DNA of 64,000 bases, from assembly GCF_030815145.1 (NCBI RefSeq), contig NZ_JAUSWJ010000001.1, positions 3,834,501 to 3,898,500 on the forward strand, written 5' to 3'. Origin of the DNA: Kaistia geumhonensis. GTDB lineage: Bacteria; Pseudomonadota; Alphaproteobacteria; Rhizobiales; Kaistiaceae. The notes beneath the pieces are model-generated. The model saw only the letters and a list, made by a program, of their open reading frames with translations. It had not been told where the DNA came from and ran no database searches. Below, in pieces: positions 15,370-59,783 of this stretch. Position numbers and translations under genes: made by a program. The number at the start of each line of letters is the position of its first letter. Positions within the stretch are counted from its first letter, which is position 1.

Positions 15370-15551
15370 GACCAATCCTCATTGTGCCGATCCAGAGGGA
15401 TTGTCGTGGTCACCGTCTTCGACCCGGCACGAGGGCTGGTGTCGTTGTCTTCGATCGCGGCAGGTTTAGCTTCCCCTCGCGGGGACGGTGACGCCTGGGT
15501 GAACTGCTGACCCTGACCCGCCTATAATCCGCGCGTCGCGATCCCGCAACT

Positions 15552-35288: not shown

Positions 35289-35540
35289 CCTTTGCGGCCC
35301 AGGGCCCGAACTCGGCCAGGAGTGGATTGGCGTTCGGCCATCTTCGTCAGGCCCGAAGGCGTAGGTGTAGCGACGCCATTTCGGCGTCGAGGGCGACCCG
35401 CGGGGGAGGGCCCGCTTCGCCTGCTTCTTGCCCTCTCATCGTTTCCTCGCACGCAGACCCCTGTCCCTTTGAGTCCGGAGCGTCGCGGCGCAGAAACGCC
35501 GCGTTGACTTCCCTCATCGCCGCGCGTAACAGCGACGGCG

Positions 35541-35585
35541 GGACACGCCTCCCCAACGAGGCGCTGCTATCTGAGAGGGTAGATC
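35541..35585 (+). promoter_or_regulatory. Structured serC leader, candidate serC RNA motif
   Basis: Two consecutive hairpins end three bases before the serC ATG. Hairpin 1 has stem CGCCTC / GAGGCG and loop CCCAAC (35546-35563). Hairpin 2 has stem CTATC / GGTAG and loop TGAGAG (35567-35582). The ribosome binding sequence GAGAGG falls in the loop and 3' arm of hairpin 2, so folding would directly affect translation. A conserved serC RNA motif upstream of serC is described for alphaproteobacteria. Position and layout agree, but I cannot align it to the family model here. Confidence 0.6.
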
Positions 35586-36761
<1,176 letters not shown>

Positions 36762-41850: not shown

Positions 41851-41903
41851 TCGGCGCTGCGCGGCTCTTGCGCCACCGGCTGCCTTCGTCCATCCTCACG
41901 TCA

Positions 41904-41993
41904 TTCCGAGGGGTGTTCGCCGACGCGAGCTGAGATGGCCTGGGGCCGAACCCTTAGAACCTGATCCGGGTCATGCCGGCGAAGGGACGGGAA
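41904..41993 (+). ncRNA. TPP riboswitch (THI element)
   Basis: All core elements are in order: closing stem TTCCG / CGGGAA, GGGGTG, the CTGAGA pyrimidine-sensing box (41930-41935), the ACCCTTAGAACCTGATC segment (41950-41966) and the closing GGCGAAGGGA. TPP binding normally switches off thiamin synthesis or transport genes. The downstream gene encodes a ThiX-type permease, as expected. An ATG at 41973 lies inside this element and should not be taken as the translation start. Confidence 0.95.
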
Positions 41994-42053
41994 GGCTTCA
42001 GCCAGACGGCTCGTTCGCATCCGCATGGTCCGGTCTCTTTGGGGATCGGCCGC

Positions 42054-48785: not shown

Positions 48786-48889
48786 GACTGGTCTCCTCAA
48801 AAGCAAAAACGGCCGGGCAAGCCCGACCGTTTCAACGGCTTCAGATCAGCGCCAGTACATCCGTGGTCGCGATCGAAGCGCTATCTCGT

Positions 48890-49099
48890 TCAGGCGGCGC
48901 TGAGATTCTCGGCGGCCTGCTTACCCGAGCGGGCGTCGCGCACGAGGTCGAAGCTGATCTTCTGACCCTCGACGAGGCTGCGCATGCCGGCACGCTCGAC
49001 AGCCGTGGCATGCACGAACACGTCCGGCTGGCCGCCGCCCTGCTCGATGAAACCAAAACCCTTGGCCGTATTGAAAAACTTCACTGTTCCGGTAGCCAT
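48890..49099 (-). CDS. Cold-shock domain protein (CspA family)
   Basis: 69 residues, one cold-shock domain. RNP-1 is KGFGFIEQ and RNP-2 is VFVHATAV, both single-stranded nucleic-acid-binding motifs. Such proteins act as RNA chaperones. The leader to the likely promoter at about 49240 is near 140 nt, long as usual for cold-shock genes. The family has many paralogs per rhizobial genome, so I give no symbol. Confidence 0.95.
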   Translation of the reverse strand: MATGTVKFFNTAKGFGFIEQGGGQPDVFVHATAVERAGMRSLVEGQKISFDLVRDARSGKQAAENLSAA

Positions 49100-50124: not shown

Positions 50125-53100
50125 TCACGCGGATCGCTGGCTGGCGCGCGCTGACGGTCCCTCGCCGACCACGCTGGCGAGGATCGCGACCAACTGAGCC
50201 TCCGTGAAGGGCTTCGAGAGGCGCGGAAGCCCAGGGTCGCCGCCATCCGGAAGCTCGGCATAGCCGGTCGAGAGGATGATCGGCAGGCCCGGATAATCCC
50301 GGCGCAACTGTTCGGCGAGCTGGGCTCCGCTCATCTGGGGCATCGCGTGGTCGGTCACGACGAGATCGACGCGGTCCCCGGCCAGCAGCGCCAGCGCTTC
50401 CATTCCGGATTGAGCCTCGACGACGCGATGGCCGAGGTCTTCCAGCATGGCGACGGTGTTCATGCGCACGAGGGCGTCGTCGTCTACGACCAGAACGGAG
50501 AGGCTCATCGGCGGTGCGGCCTCGGCGACCGGTGCAACCGGAGCCGTCTCCACGCCCGCCGGGCAGACGGCCACCGGCAGCCAGATTTCGGCAGTCGTTC
50601 CGCGGCCGGGCTCGCTGTGCAGTGCCAGCCGGCCACCCGATTGCTGGGCGAGGCCATGCACCATCGACAGGCCGAGCCCGGTGCCTTTGCCGACGCCTTT
50701 CGTCGTGAAGAAGGGCTCCCGCGCGCGCCGCAACGTCTCGGCGTCCATGCCCTCGCCGGTGTCGCTGACAGAGAGGCGCACATAGCGTCCGGGCGCGAGC
50801 TCCGGGTCTTCGGAGATGATCTCTTCCGATGCGGAAACGCGGATCGTGCCCTGCTCATGCATGGCGTCGCGCGCGTTGACGGCGATGTTGAGCAGCGCCG
50901 TCTCGAGCTGGTTGGGGTCTGTCTGGACCGTCGGCAACGCTGCGGGGAAATCCGTCTCGATGGCGATCATCGGCCCGAGCGAGCGTTGCAGCAACTCTGC
51001 CATGCCGTCGAAAAGCCGAGCGATGTCGACCGGGGCGATCTGCAGTTCCTGGCGCCGCGCGAAGGCCAGCATGCGCGACGTGAGGGCCCCGCCGCGCCGC
51101 GCGCCTTCCATGGCGTTGTCGATGAGGCGGCGCAGCTGCGGATCGGCGGGAATCCGCTTGCCGAGCAGTTCGAGGCTGCCCATCACTGCCATCAGCAGGT
51201 TGTTGAAGTCATGAGCGATGCCGCCGGTGAGCTGGCCGATCGCCTCCATCTTCTGGGCCTGCAAGAGCGCCGCCTCGGTCTGCTGGCGCACGGCGATCTC
51301 GGCGGCGACCCGCGCCTCCAGCGTTTCGTTGAGGGCCCTCAGCTGCTCCTCTGCCTTGGCGCGCTGGCGGTTCTCCTGCTCCACGGTCTGGAAAAGACGG
51401 GCATTGTCGATCGCCACCGCAGCCTGCCCGGCGATGCCGACGAGCAGCTTCTCGTGCTCCTCGAAGAAGCGGTCCGGCTCCGGATGGCCGAACAGAAGGC
51501 CGCCGATCACCTCGCCGGTCCGCGAGACGACAGGCACAGCGAGATAGCTCCGCACCGGGAGATGTCCATGCGGCATGCCGAGGAAGCCGGAGTTGAGGCC
51601 ATATTCGGGATGCTTCAAGACATCCCCGGCACGGATGATGCCCTTGCCTTCGAAGGTCGGATGGAAGAGCGGCGTGTTCCGCGGCATCGGGAAACTGTCG
51701 AAATGGCTGCGATCGACGCCCGACAGCGAATAGAGGCGGTAGCGCTCGCCCGCCTCGTCGATGACGTTGTAGAAGAAGGCGCCGAACTGCGCGCCGGTCA
51801 GGGCGACGCCGGCATCGGTGACCGTCTGGACGATCTTCTCGGGATCGAGCTCGGCGGCGATGGCCGCGCCGCTCGAATTGAGGATCTCGAGGCGCCGCCG
51901 CTCCTTGTGCTGCACCGCCTCGGCTTGCCTCTGCTCGCTGACGTCGACATTGACGCCGATCATTCCGACGAACTCGCCTTCGACTGAAAAACGCGGCCGG
52001 GCGTCGGTGAGAAGCGTCCGCCAGGCGCCGTCGGCGCGGCGATACCGCGCCTCGGCCGTGAAGCGGGTGCGCGTGCGCATGCCCTCCTCGAAGGGGCCGG
52101 CGAGCGCCTCGCGATCCTCGGGATGAACCGTCGTCGACCAGTCGAAATCGGACAAATCGTCGGGCGTTCCCCAAAACTCGCGCTGCGCGCGGTTCAGGTA
52201 GATGCAGCGGCCGTCCTGATCGCCCATCCAGAGCATGACCGGGGCGCTCTCGGCCACGAGGCGGAAGCGCGCCTCGCTCTCCTCCAGCGCCTTGCGGGCG
52301 ATCACCTGCTCGGTGACGTCGGTGCCCTGGACATAAATGCCGGCGAGCGCGCCGGACCGGTCGCGGACGGGCTGATAGATATAGTCGAGATAGTGCAGTT
52401 CGGGGGCCGCACCCGCCGCGCTCTCCAGCCAGACCGGCGCAGTCATGCCGGAGATGGCGCTCCCGCTCTCATAGACCCGGTCGAGCAATTCGAGGAAGCC
52501 TTGGCCGACCACTTCCGGCAGCGCTTCGATCACCGGCTTGCCGATGATGTCGCGATTGCCGACGAGGCGCAGATAAGCCTGGTTCGCCATGGTGAAGACG
52601 TGGTCCGGACCCTCGAGCAGGGCAGAGAATCCGGGCGTCTGCTCGACCATCATGCGCAGACGCTCGGCCTCGCCGCGCAGCCAGCGCTCGGCCGCCACCT
52701 TGTCCGTCGTCTCCACGACGATGGCGATGACGCCGAGCGGGTGACCGTCCTCGTCGAGAACGGGCGAATAGTCTAGGTTCATCCAGACCTGTTCGGGTCG
52801 GCCGTTGCGGTAGAGCGTCAGCTCCTGATCGGCGTAGCTGAGCGTCTCGCCGCGGCCAAACACGGTTCGCACGACATTGTCGTTGAAATCGGCGACCTCG
52901 ATCCAGCCCTCGCGCACCTTGGAGCCGAGCAGGGCGGGATGGCGGGCGCCGGCGAAGACCGAATAGGCGTCGTTGTAGATCATGACGCCGTCCTCGCCCC
53001 AGAGCGTGACGATAGGCACCGGAGAACGGAGGATCATGGCGACGGTGCTGATGATGCCCTGCGGCCAGCGCTCGATCGCTCCAAGCGATGTCCGTTCCCA

Positions 53101-53184
53101 GGCGAAAGCGGCGATCAGCCGGCCCATCTCGCCGCCTTCCCGCAGGAAGGCCGGTCCGATCGACCCGACCCCGTCGTTCAGCAT
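50125..53184 (-). CDS. Hybrid sensor histidine kinase (PAS-PAS-PAS-GAF-HisKA-HATPase-REC)
   Basis: 1019 residues, soluble. Three PAS-type domains (about 15-390, including TPGFSALLEGPDHVFTMANQAYLRLVG and DQDGRCIYLNRAQREFWG) and a GAF domain (about 410-590) precede HisKA with GGIAHDFNNLL (H658), a HATPase domain with VGKGTGLGLSMVHG, and a C-terminal receiver with phospho-acceptor D945 (LVVTDHAMPQMSG). The HDFNN type of H-box belongs to the HWE/HisKA group often linked to general stress or light signalling. The start at ATG 53184 is chosen over a TTG at 53262 that would run into the terminator of the DUF1127 transcript. No output regulator is adjacent. Confidence 0.9.
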   Translation of the reverse strand: MLNDGVGSIGPAFLREGGEMGRLIAAFAWERTSLGAIERWPQGIISTVAMILRSPVPIVTLWGEDGVMIYNDAYSVFAGARHPALLGSKVREGWIEVADFNDNVVRTVFGRGETLSYADQELTLYRNGRPEQVWMNLDYSPVLDEDGHPLGVIAIVVETTDKVAAERWLRGEAERLRMMVEQTPGFSALLEGPDHVFTMANQAYLRLVGNRDIIGKPVIEALPEVVGQGFLELLDRVYESGSAISGMTAPVWLESAAGAAPELHYLDYIYQPVRDRSGALAGIYVQGTDVTEQVIARKALEESEARFRLVAESAPVMLWMGDQDGRCIYLNRAQREFWGTPDDLSDFDWSTTVHPEDREALAGPFEEGMRTRTRFTAEARYRRADGAWRTLLTDARPRFSVEGEFVGMIGVNVDVSEQRQAEAVQHKERRRLEILNSSGAAIAAELDPEKIVQTVTDAGVALTGAQFGAFFYNVIDEAGERYRLYSLSGVDRSHFDSFPMPRNTPLFHPTFEGKGIIRAGDVLKHPEYGLNSGFLGMPHGHLPVRSYLAVPVVSRTGEVIGGLLFGHPEPDRFFEEHEKLLVGIAGQAAVAIDNARLFQTVEQENRQRAKAEEQLRALNETLEARVAAEIAVRQQTEAALLQAQKMEAIGQLTGGIAHDFNNLLMAVMGSLELLGKRIPADPQLRRLIDNAMEGARRGGALTSRMLAFARRQELQIAPVDIARLFDGMAELLQRSLGPMIAIETDFPAALPTVQTDPNQLETALLNIAVNARDAMHEQGTIRVSASEEIISEDPELAPGRYVRLSVSDTGEGMDAETLRRAREPFFTTKGVGKGTGLGLSMVHGLAQQSGGRLALHSEPGRGTTAEIWLPVAVCPAGVETAPVAPVAEAAPPMSLSVLVVDDDALVRMNTVAMLEDLGHRVVEAQSGMEALALLAGDRVDLVVTDHAMPQMSGAQLAEQLRRDYPGLPIILSTGYAELPDGGDPGLPRLSKPFTEAQLVAILASVVGEGPSARASQRSA

Positions 53185-53260
53185 GTCGCAAGTCCCCACG
53201 CAATTCCGCGAGGGCTTCAATGCCGGAAACCGGGTCGAAGTTCCATCGAAGGTCGCGGAC

Positions 53261-53381
53261 AAAAAAGAAAACGCCCGCCGGGGAGGAGATCGGCGGGCGT
53301 CTTCACGTCAGCGGCGCAGCGGGGAGGAGGTCGCCTGCCGCCTTTATCGCGGACGGGGGAGGACCGTCCGGCGAAGCTCTC
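53261..53381 (-). ncRNA. CcsR/cuckoo-type triple-hairpin sRNA downstream of DUF1127 (copy A)
   Basis: Directly after the DUF1127 stop, the minus strand forms three hairpins. H1: stem CGGACG / CGTCCG, loop GTCCTCCCC (53350-53370). H2: stem of 8 bp with an internal loop, apical loop ACCTCCTCCC (53311-53341). H3: stem CGCCCGCC / GGCGGGCG, loop with CTCCTCCCC, and a U-tract (53261-53299), which also serves as terminator. C-rich anti-Shine-Dalgarno-like loops next to a DUF1127 gene define the cuckoo/CcsR sRNAs of Rhodobacter and rhizobia, which are processed from the mRNA. Family membership is inferred from this architecture. Confidence 0.75.
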
Positions 53382-53528
53382 TCAGTAACCGGCGGCGCGA
53401 CGGGCGACGTGGTCGATGTCGCCGCGCTGGATCCCCATGTCGGCCAGCTCCCGGTTGTTCAACCTGACCAGCTCACCATAGGTTTCCTTGTACTTCCGCC
53501 AGTTCTTGAAGTTCTTGACGATGTTCAT
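53382..53528 (-). CDS. DUF1127 (YjiS-like) small protein, copy A
   Basis: 48 residues: an N-terminal amphipathic helix (NIVKNFKNWRKYKETY) and the DUF1127 core RLNNRELADMGIQRGDIDHVARRAA. AAGGGTG lies 7 nt before the ATG. In Rhodobacter sphaeroides the DUF1127 protein CcaF1, whose mRNA carries the CcsR RNAs, binds RNA and affects sRNA maturation; the same role here is inferred from the shared downstream hairpins. A homologous gene lies at 59495 on the other strand. Confidence 0.9.
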   Translation of the reverse strand: MNIVKNFKNWRKYKETYGELVRLNNRELADMGIQRGDIDHVARRAAGY

Positions 53529-53681
53529 TTCGGCACCCTTGCTTTGATTTCAAGGGGCGGTCCCGTTTTCGTCCGTCCGTCCCTGTCGAGACAAGAGATA
53601 GGCGCCTTCCGACTCTCCGAGCAGGGCCGATTTGGTCAAGGCTGGCTTGCATCTGGTGCATGGCAGCACGAGAAACCCCAA

Positions 53682-53702
53682 CCATATTGCAATGCAATAT
53701 GG
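53682..53702. repeat. Near-perfect 21-bp palindrome upstream of DUF1127 copy A
   Basis: Arms CCATATTGCA and TGCAATATGG around a single central A. It lies 26 nt after the stop of the universal stress gene and about 154 nt before the DUF1127 start, both on the minus strand. It is much more AT-rich than its surroundings and lacks a U-tract, so an operator is more likely than a terminator. No matching regulator is identified. Confidence 0.7.
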
Positions 53703-53727: not shown

Positions 53728-54540
53728 CTAGGCTGGAATGGCGAGGACGGGGCAGGGCGCCTGCCGCATCACCCGCTCGGTATGCGTGCCGCGCAACATG
53801 TCGAGCAGGCTGTCGTGGCGGCGCGTCGGCATGGCGACGAGGTCGGCGCTGCCGGCATGGGCGAGGATCGTCTCGATCAGCGGGCCGGAGGCGAGCCGGA
53901 CCGGAGCCCAGCCTTCGCCGCTCGGCGTCGGAATGCGCGGCGCGCGTTCGCCGACATGCAGCAGTTCGACGGCGTCGTCCGCGAGACCGAGCGCGCTGGA
54001 GAGCCGTGCCACGACGTTGAGCGCATGGCCGGCCGGCGGCTGATCGGCGATCGGCATCAGGATGTGCTGGAGCGACAGCGCGCCGGTCGCCGGATCGGCG
54101 AAGCCTGGCCTGTCGAGCGGAACGAAGAGCACCGGCACCTCGGTCTCGGCGGCGATCCGTTCGGAGATCGATCCATGCAGAACCCGGTCGAGCCCCTCGC
54201 GGGCATGCGAGCCGAGCACGAGGAGATCGGCCGCATGGGCCGAGAGGAATCGCTCCACGCCGCTCGCCGGGTCGTGGTCGCGGATATCGACCTTGGAGAC
54301 GAGGACGCCGCTATCGCGGTCGACCGTCTCGCGCGGTGCGTCGGCGGCGATGAGCCCCCAGCCGGCGAGAGTTTCGCGGACGGCCGGAAAATGCCCGGCT
54401 TCGTCGCCGCGGCCCTGGACGTGCAGGACCTGGAACTCTGCCTTCAGCGCCACGGCGAGGGCCAGCGCATGCACGAAAGCGGGTCGGCTCGCGAGCGAGA
54501 AATCGGTTGTGTGGGCGATGCGATAGCGTGGTCCGGTCAT
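53728..54540 (-). CDS. Tandem universal stress protein (UspA family)
   Basis: 270 residues, two Usp domains. The first (about 1-145) has HTTDFSLASRPAFVHALALA and LLVLGSHAREGLDRVLHGSISERI; the ATP-binding-type glycine motif is G-x2-(SH)AREG-x9-G(S/T). The second (about 155-270) ends with GTHTERVMRQAPCPVLAIP. Such proteins accumulate in stress and starvation. The start at 54540 is supported by the conserved N-terminal strand. It precedes the palindrome and DUF1127 copy A on the same strand. Confidence 0.9.
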   Translation of the reverse strand: MTGPRYRIAHTTDFSLASRPAFVHALALAVALKAEFQVLHVQGRGDEAGHFPAVRETLAGWGLIAADAPRETVDRDSGVLVSKVDIRDHDPASGVERFLSAHAADLLVLGSHAREGLDRVLHGSISERIAAETEVPVLFVPLDRPGFADPATGALSLQHILMPIADQPPAGHALNVVARLSSALGLADDAVELLHVGERAPRIPTPSGEGWAPVRLASGPLIETILAHAGSADLVAMPTRRHDSLLDMLRGTHTERVMRQAPCPVLAIPA

Positions 54541-59206: not shown

Positions 59207-59494
59207 GCCTGATCCGGAGCTTTGCGCTGACGCCTTTGGCGATGCCAGCCGGGCGGCAGCATTGGCTGCTCTTCGCGCCTCGGCTTGGCCAATTCGGGCG
59301 ACGATGCGGCATCAGCACCCCGAATATGGCTGTTGTGCGGCGCAACATAGTGCGGGCTTGTGGTTTTGCTCTGCACAAACCGCAGCCCTGCCATGAGCAA
59401 AGGACGAGTGCTCATCCTCCCTTGAGCGGTCTACATTCCTGACATCGAAAGCGCGCTGGCAGTGGTCGGCGCCTCGATGAGAAGGACGACGACA

Positions 59495-59647
59495 ATGGCT
59501 AATGGCATCATTGCTTCCTACAAGGGCTGGGTGAAGTTTCGCCAGACCTGCAATGAGCTCAATCGGCTGACGAACCGTGAGCTCGCCGACCTCGGAATCG
59601 AGCGTTCGGAAATCGCGAAGGTCGCCAAGCGGTCGGCCGCCTACTGA
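59495..59647 (+). CDS. DUF1127 (YjiS-like) small protein, copy B
   Basis: 50 residues: ANGIIASYKGWVKFRQTCNEL then the core NRLTNRELADLGIERSEIAKVAKRSAAY. It shares the RELADLGI / RxxI core with copy A at 53382. AAGGACG lies 9 nt before the ATG; an upstream ATG at 59462 adds 11 residues without support. Followed by the triple-hairpin sRNA region. The role in RNA binding is inferred from CcaF1 of Rhodobacter. Confidence 0.9.
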   Translation: MANGIIASYKGWVKFRQTCNELNRLTNRELADLGIERSEIAKVAKRSAAY

Positions 59648-59775
59648 GTTTCAGGAATTCGCCGGGAACGAACCTCCTCCCTCGTTTCCCGCGATCGGCG
59701 AGCGGCCGACCTCCTCCCCGGCCCCTCGCCAGTACAAGAGAACGCCCGCCGACCTCCTCCCCGGCGGGCGTTTTC
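59648..59775 (+). ncRNA. CcsR/cuckoo-type triple-hairpin sRNA downstream of DUF1127 (copy B)
   Basis: Three consecutive hairpins. H1 (59664-59690): GGGAACGA / TCGTTTCCC with a one-base bulge, loop ACCTCCTCCC. H2 (59697-59730): GGCGAG and GGCC paired with GGCC and CTCGCC, loop GACCTCCTCCCC. H3 (59743-59770): CGCCCGCC / GGCGGGCG, loop GACCTCCTCCCC, followed by TTTTCTTTT. H3 is nearly identical to that of copy A. The repeated CCTCCTCCC in loops is the defining trait of the cuckoo/CcsR RNAs. Confidence 0.78.
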
Positions 59776-59783
59776 TTTTGTGC

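Follow-up and report, generated by a model that had tools for sequence, protein, structure and literature searches.

In the genome of Kaistia geumhonensis, a gene for a DUF1127 protein runs directly into three hairpins with C-rich loops, which raises the questions of which family of RNAs these hairpins belong to, what switches them on, and on which mRNAs they act. Loci that combine a short DUF1127 gene with anti-Shine-Dalgarno (anti-SD) hairpin RNAs are known as CIN1 loci and are described as frequent in alphaproteobacteria; in the same account, ccaF1 of Rhodobacter is co-transcribed with the RNAs CcsR1-4, CcaF1 and RNase E take part in maturation, and ccaF1-CcsR has an RpoHI/RpoHII promoter (PMC10253847). 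The NfeR1 RNA of S. meliloti possesses three redundant loops, whose anti-SD sequences silence ntrB; it is reported to be activated by LsrB via TGCA-N6-GCAT at -72 to -60 and to be repressed by NtrC (PMC10746234). DUF1127 proteins have been described as RNA-binding in one species and as protein-binding in others (PMC12501420); further literature sources were PMC3927594, PMC12218461 and PMC11975290. An earlier note on this DNA, made from the letters alone, took the locus for an mRNA-derived CcsR system of the Rhodobacter type. Here we analyze the window (the whole stretch of 64,000 nucleotides), the complete genome, and related genomes of the genus and the order.

The DUF1127 gene and its 3' RNA

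The locus, referred to as copy A, comprises the following elements:

53382-53528, minus strand: DUF1127 small protein gene, 48 aa (Pfam PF06568)
53261-53381, minus strand: three-hairpin ar14-type RNA, the presumed 3' end of the DUF1127 transcript (ar14 score, fold, covariation)
53347-53374, minus strand: hairpin 1, with the shortened loop UCCUCCC at 53357-53363
53310-53342, minus strand: hairpin 2, with the loop ACCUCCUCCC at 53322-53331
53261-53304, minus strand: hairpin 3, terminator-like, with the loop AUCUCCUCCC at 53281-53290 and a U-rich tail after it

A Pfam profile search gave 44.6 bits for the coding sequence against PF06568 (cut-off 23.3), which bears out the 48-residue DUF1127 gene that had been noticed in 53261-53528 (minus strand). 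The hairpins had been said to abut the gene without a gap, and the ar14 match indeed begins 2 nt past the stop codon. The fold of 53261-53381 (minus strand) has a predicted energy of -58.8 kcal/mol with z -3.61, and none of 200 shuffled sequences was equally stable, in agreement with the three hairpins and the terminal U-tract proposed earlier. The accompanying claim that every loop is C-rich and anti-Shine-Dalgarno-like stands insofar as all three are C-rich, but they are unequal, with loop 1 shortened; because the full CCTCCTCCC is limited to loop 2, the loops of copy A are similar and not identical. The same short loop 1 is found in the putative copy A orthologues of the genomes G001, G007 and G141, and it is therefore an inherited variant and no sequencing slip. 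A simple terminator scan returned no match at copy A; the scan admits loops of up to 8 nucleotides, and the loop of hairpin 3 has 10. Copy A is flanked by genes for a universal stress protein (53728-54540, minus strand) and a PAS/GAF hybrid histidine kinase (50125-53262, minus strand).

Against the Rfam family ar14 (RF02344), copy A scores 55.4 bits (E 2.5e-9), which is 3.4 bits under the cut-off of 58.8, and a search at the gathering thresholds finds copy B, a second locus of the window, and misses copy A, which surfaces if an E-value threshold is used. Among its putative orthologues, those in G001 (61.7 bits) and G007 (61.9) pass the ar14 cut-off, and that in G141 (55.2) remains below it. 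The earlier note had suggested scoring 53261-53381 against the cuckoo/CcsR covariance model; with CcsR1 (RF02791), copy A reaches 31.8 bits (E 7.1e-6), well under the cut-off of 65.3, copy B reaches 32.0, and ar14 fits far better.

Other RNA matches above cut-off in the window include a TPP riboswitch (41899-42004, plus strand), a serC leader (35536-35587, plus strand), a COG3860 RNA (15458-15513, minus strand) and an ar35 sRNA (48802-48907, minus strand; 46.2 bits, cut-off 45). The last of these overlaps the final part of a short reading frame (48890-49099, minus strand), which we take to encode a protein resembling cold-shock proteins, and is possibly another 3'-end-derived RNA.

Paralogous copies and covariation of the stems

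The second locus of the window, copy B, comprises:

59495-59647, plus strand: DUF1127 gene, 50 aa (Pfam PF06568, 50.9 bits)
59654-59776, plus strand: ar14 RNA with three ACCUCCUCCC loops (78.1 bits, passing the ar14 cut-off; fold)
59372-59394, plus strand: LysR/LsrB-like box with one mismatch to the published box

The whole-genome ar14 search yielded four matches (55.4-78.1 bits, next best 20.9), the two further copies scoring 69.3 and 62.5 bits, both above the cut-off. Six DUF1127 genes exceed the Pfam cut-off in the genome, four of which lie directly 5' of the four ar14 RNAs, and neither such hairpins nor the upstream box described below were found at the remaining two. In 14 Kaistia genomes there are 43 ar14 matches at E<=1e-5, 42 of them behind a DUF1127 stop codon; these 42 correspond to 39 loci plus three of the four in G141. 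The distance from the stop codon to the RNA is 2-34 nt in the 39 loci, and all 39 folds exhibit three loops with a C-rich motif, as judged by a loose motif test. The 39 loci are the strong Kaistia matches among 48 ar14 matches listed; the counts leave out three DUF1127-linked matches in G019, five weak matches (31.6-36.3 bits) that lack a DUF1127 gene, and one weak match at a contig edge (G006:C106). One weak match, L074 (G001:C4:1192640-1192735; 36.3 bits), carries CTCCTCCC in two loops; its upstream side revealed no DUF1127 gene. On contig C130 of G019 (L029, 863-2560) there are four tandem DUF1127 genes; behind three of them lies an RNA that has CCTCC loops and a weak ar14 score (31.7-45.6 bits).

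Between this genome (G000) and G141, 6 of the 49 codons of the copy A gene show a synonymous difference and none a non-synonymous one, and the copy A genes of G001 and G007 are 5 synonymous and no non-synonymous codons apart. The comparison of G000 with G001 gives 15 synonymous and 13 non-synonymous differences, that with G007 gives 13 and 13, and over all copy A pairs other than G000-G141 and G001-G007 the range is 10-15 and 13. For the G141 counterparts of copies B and D, there are 1/1 and 3/1 synonymous/non-synonymous differences, respectively.

The three-hairpin structure is supported by covariation of its stems. In the alignment of 39 homologues, 98.4% of the pairing cells can pair, and 15 of the 27 predicted pairs exhibit compensated changes on both sides. 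The covariation score is 0.267, compared to 0.133 in shuffled alignments (none of 500 reaches it) and 0.034-0.116 in slid controls, and in the number of further pair types the alignment does not exceed the shuffles (93/500); since the 39 aligned sequences are related, these shuffle fractions should not be read as probabilities.

A conserved upstream element and its probable link to LsrB/VtlR

A simple sigma-70 scan found no standard promoter at copy A. The following elements were identified upstream of its gene:

53638-53660, minus strand: LysR/LsrB-like box TGCACCAGATGCAAGCCAGCCTT, which departs from the published GCAT-N3-TG-N3-T at two positions
53682-53702, minus strand: second upstream dyad CCATATTGCATTGCAATATGG, which reads TGC-N3-GCA in the consensus of the 39 loci (anchored alignment)
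53596-53601, minus strand: -10-like CTATCT, at a spacing from the box common to the 39 loci

In an upstream alignment of the 39 loci anchored on TGC-N2-TGC, all 39 share TGC-N2-TGC[AG]-N6-GCA, after which come letters resembling C[A/T]G-[C/G]CATG. At a common spacing downstream of this box there is TGCTC and then the -10-like CTA, and further upstream there is a second TGC-N3-GCA, again in 39/39 loci. As a fixed pattern, the box occurs in all 39 upstream stretches and in none of the 39 downstream ones, and within the window at copies A and B only; the reverse-complemented upstream stretches match in 19/39 because the box is partly palindromic, and if one mismatch is allowed, the genus-derived box matches 36 of 117 control stretches. 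Exact sites of this pattern in the complete genome number four, and all of them lie upstream of the genes of the four operons; a single further site has one mismatch and 29 sites have two, as compared to 18 sites with up to two mismatches for the reversed control. The recovery of the four operons is circular, since the pattern was built from these loci, but the scarcity of other exact sites is not.

The consensus proposed for LsrB/VtlR is GCAT-N3-TG-N3-T (PMC7486931, PMC8844928). Mismatches to it number zero in 11 of the 39 loci, one in 11 and two in 17 (including copy A), and the exact TGCA-N6-GCAT is present in 6/39. With a start site ~12 nt past the C of the -10-like element, predicted at about 53589 for copy A, the box would lie at about -72 to -60.

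The genome encodes a LysR-type regulator directly behind trxB, which matches PDB 9hh1 over its full length (423.8 bits, next best 114.1). The 9HH1 entry is LsrB of A. tumefaciens, and lsrB-trxB is reported to be a constant operon across the Rhizobiales; judged by its sequence, the gene beside trxB is the LsrB orthologue. The search for AbcR (ar15) as a route to LsrB reached 25.4 bits (cut-off 40) and was abandoned, the trxB neighbourhood serving instead. The genes atu1667 of A. tumefaciens and bab1_0914 and bab2_0512 of B. abortus encode DUF1127 proteins. These small genes have been found to be directly activated by VtlR/LsrB, and atu1667 has been also called a putative sRNA (PMC7486931).

Apparent loss of the reading frame and loci outside the genus

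In one Kaistia relative, G141, the loss of the DUF1127 frame is seen:

G141:C3:138152-138273 (L126 / L058): orthologue of copy C, reading frame lost; box, -10 and three hairpins kept

At this locus ~200 nt with the entire DUF1127 frame are missing, the end of the upstream neighbour gene is kept, and the box lies 100 nt from the first loop, compared to 297-349 nt in all 39 linked loci. In unlinked loci of other families with an exact box, this distance is 86-120 nt in 8/10 cases; the shortened spacing and the missing frame therefore imply that a linked copy has acquired the stand-alone layout of NfeR1. Copy C of G141 thus appears to have lost the DUF1127 frame and kept the RNA, in a single metagenome-assembled genome in which an assembly error is possible.

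A scan of the order for three CCTCCTCC motifs spaced 20-50 nt apart gave matches, some of them of low complexity, in 31 of 199 genomes. A reversed-pattern control was dropped as uninformative, as CCTCCTCC is identical when read backwards. Thirty-two of the loci so found were examined, several of them from close relatives and hence not independent; the low-complexity L045 and L048, G130:C1:2155000, G208:C1:1884879, the places in G184 and G200:C22 were left out. Sixteen loci have a same-strand DUF1127 gene within ~200 nt upstream and 16 do not. The composite TGC-N7-GCAT-N3-TG-N3-T occurs upstream of 9/16 linked and 10/16 unlinked loci, and downstream of none (0/16 in both). The published box alone was found upstream of 10/16 in either group, and downstream of 0 linked and 3 unlinked loci, and the genus pattern upstream of 6/16 linked and 10/16 unlinked loci (downstream 2/16 and 1/16), rising with one mismatch to 13/16 and 12/16 (controls 12/48 and 7/48). 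A similar element is therefore present in both states, though not at every locus. On contig C11 of G191 (L077, 1280-1560, reverse strand), eight CCTCCTCC motifs form an array behind a single DUF1127 gene.

Tentatively, and with rather more doubt than belief, we propose that the LsrB-type promoter and the anti-SD hairpin RNA constitute the conserved unit, into which the DUF1127 frame is separably inserted. Stand-alone NfeR1-type RNAs and DUF1127-linked RNAs would then be two states of one element, and losing or gaining the frame would convert one state into the other. On this view, the GAAGGA-like ribosome-binding sites of the DUF1127 genes would escape the RNA they carry.

Proposed mode of action and its alternatives

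In our main reading, to which we assign a probability of roughly 0.7, the genome contains four paralogous operons, each giving rise to an LsrB/VtlR-type-activated DUF1127 mRNA that ends in an NfeR1/ar14-like RNA blocking other mRNAs. A LysR regulator of the LsrB/VtlR type would switch on each short mRNA, comprising the frame for the DUF1127 micro-protein and the three-hairpin NfeR1/ar14-like 3' end. This 3' end, either intact or cut off by processing, would expose up to three CCUCC loops that imitate the anti-Shine-Dalgarno sequence of 16S rRNA; by pairing with the purine-rich ribosome-binding sites on other mRNAs, the loops would block translation, and hairpin 3 would double as the transcription end. 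The predicted pairing energies are -9.5 to -11.8 kcal/mol for the start region of ntrB (with an assumed start codon) and -3.5 to -8.7 kcal/mol for the four own DUF1127 start regions, and by this weaker pairing the carrier gene would be spared. As strong ribosome-binding sites are common, the calculated ntrB pairing says no more than that a target like that of NfeR1 is conceivable.

According to the explanation closest to the earlier note, the locus is an RpoH-driven stress operon of the Rhodobacter CcsR type, whose hairpin RNAs are matured by RNase E together with a CcaF1-like DUF1127 protein. We consider this unlikely, even though the gene order and the loop motif are alike, the co-transcription of ccaF1 with CcsR1-4 and the role of CcaF1 in maturation are documented (PMC10253847), and CcsR1 does give a weak score: its cut-off is missed, ar14 is a far better fit, and the element conserved upstream resembles a LysR box. 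Besides, the RNA of copy C in G141 persists without an adjacent DUF1127 gene, so that a partner in cis is unnecessary there, although other copies could supply the protein in trans. An RNase E-like motif between the stop codon and stem 1 (36/39 loci) was rejected as evidence, being so short and loose that it is often expected by chance.

It appears about equally improbable that the hairpins are a mere terminator and an mRNA-protecting 3' UTR with no regulation in trans. Hairpin 3, with its U-tail, does look like an intrinsic terminator, but it is preceded by two more hairpins whose stems covary, which is why we set the terminator-only reading aside; moreover, the loops remain C-rich, the same loops are also present where no DUF1127 gene adjoins the RNA, and ar14 members are described as trans-acting in S. 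meliloti (PMC10746234). That the C-rich loops act in cis, as feedback on the ribosome-binding site of the DUF1127 frame with which they share a transcript, is scarcely credible given the weak pairing with the own start regions compared to that with ntrB.

Implications of the proposed LsrB-activated, NfeR1-like reading

Both the association of DUF1127 genes with RNAs (CIN1 locus, PMC10253847) and the direct activation of small-protein genes by VtlR (PMC7486931) are already known. In the open-licence literature searched, outside which the original cuckoo, CcaF1 and CcsR papers lie, we found neither an operon of an NfeR1-type RNA, a DUF1127 gene and an LsrB box nor a case of frame loss, and within the same scope, from which key papers are absent, no paper naming both NfeR1 and DUF1127. 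Our results suggest that the regulon of LsrB/VtlR and the loci of the CIN1/cuckoo type may be one subject, with one regulator, one mRNA and two products. Kaistia carries the unit in three or four parallel copies, and in one natural case the frame is gone and the RNA kept, so the roles of the protein and the RNA are separable.

Comparison with known systems

With ar14/NfeR1 (RF02344; SmelA075-type three-hairpin RNA) the Kaistia RNA shares three hairpins, loops of the CCUCCUCCC type (in copy A, UCCUCCC in loop 1 and AUCUCCUCCC in loop 3) and variable stems, as well as an LsrB-box-type promoter element at similar spacing. However, descriptions of NfeR1 have it as an sRNA that stands alone and possesses a promoter of its own, whereas the Kaistia RNA lies 3' of a DUF1127 frame; a sigma-70 promoter and an LsrB box adjoining the RNA itself were not found at copy A, the box being located upstream of the DUF1127 gene. 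Copy A also differs in its sub-threshold Rfam score and shortened loop 1. The VtlR/LsrB-activated small-protein genes are likewise small genes, and their control by LsrB/VtlR is of the type proposed for the Kaistia loci.

Rhodobacter ccaF1-CcsR1-4 is likewise a DUF1127 gene followed by an RNA cluster with CCUCCUCCC loops. Four RNAs and an RpoHI/RpoHII promoter are described there, whereas copy A has one three-hairpin unit, a LysR-box-like upstream element and a CcsR1 score far under the cut-off. In the comparison drawn by the earlier note, gene order and loops thus hold; what fails is the CcsR1 model, the RNA count and, judging by the upstream elements observed, the promoter type. What stands of that note is the arrangement of the CIN1 locus with its cuckoo RNA, i.e. 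a short DUF1127 gene directly 5' of anti-SD-like hairpins, which copy A possesses and from which no decisive difference is apparent in the descriptions available. The Kaistia locus is accordingly read as a further case of the known arrangement of DUF1127 gene and anti-Shine-Dalgarno RNA, and copy A is probably an LsrB-activated mRNA with an NfeR1-like 3' end, rather than a copy of the RpoH-driven CcsR system of Rhodobacter.
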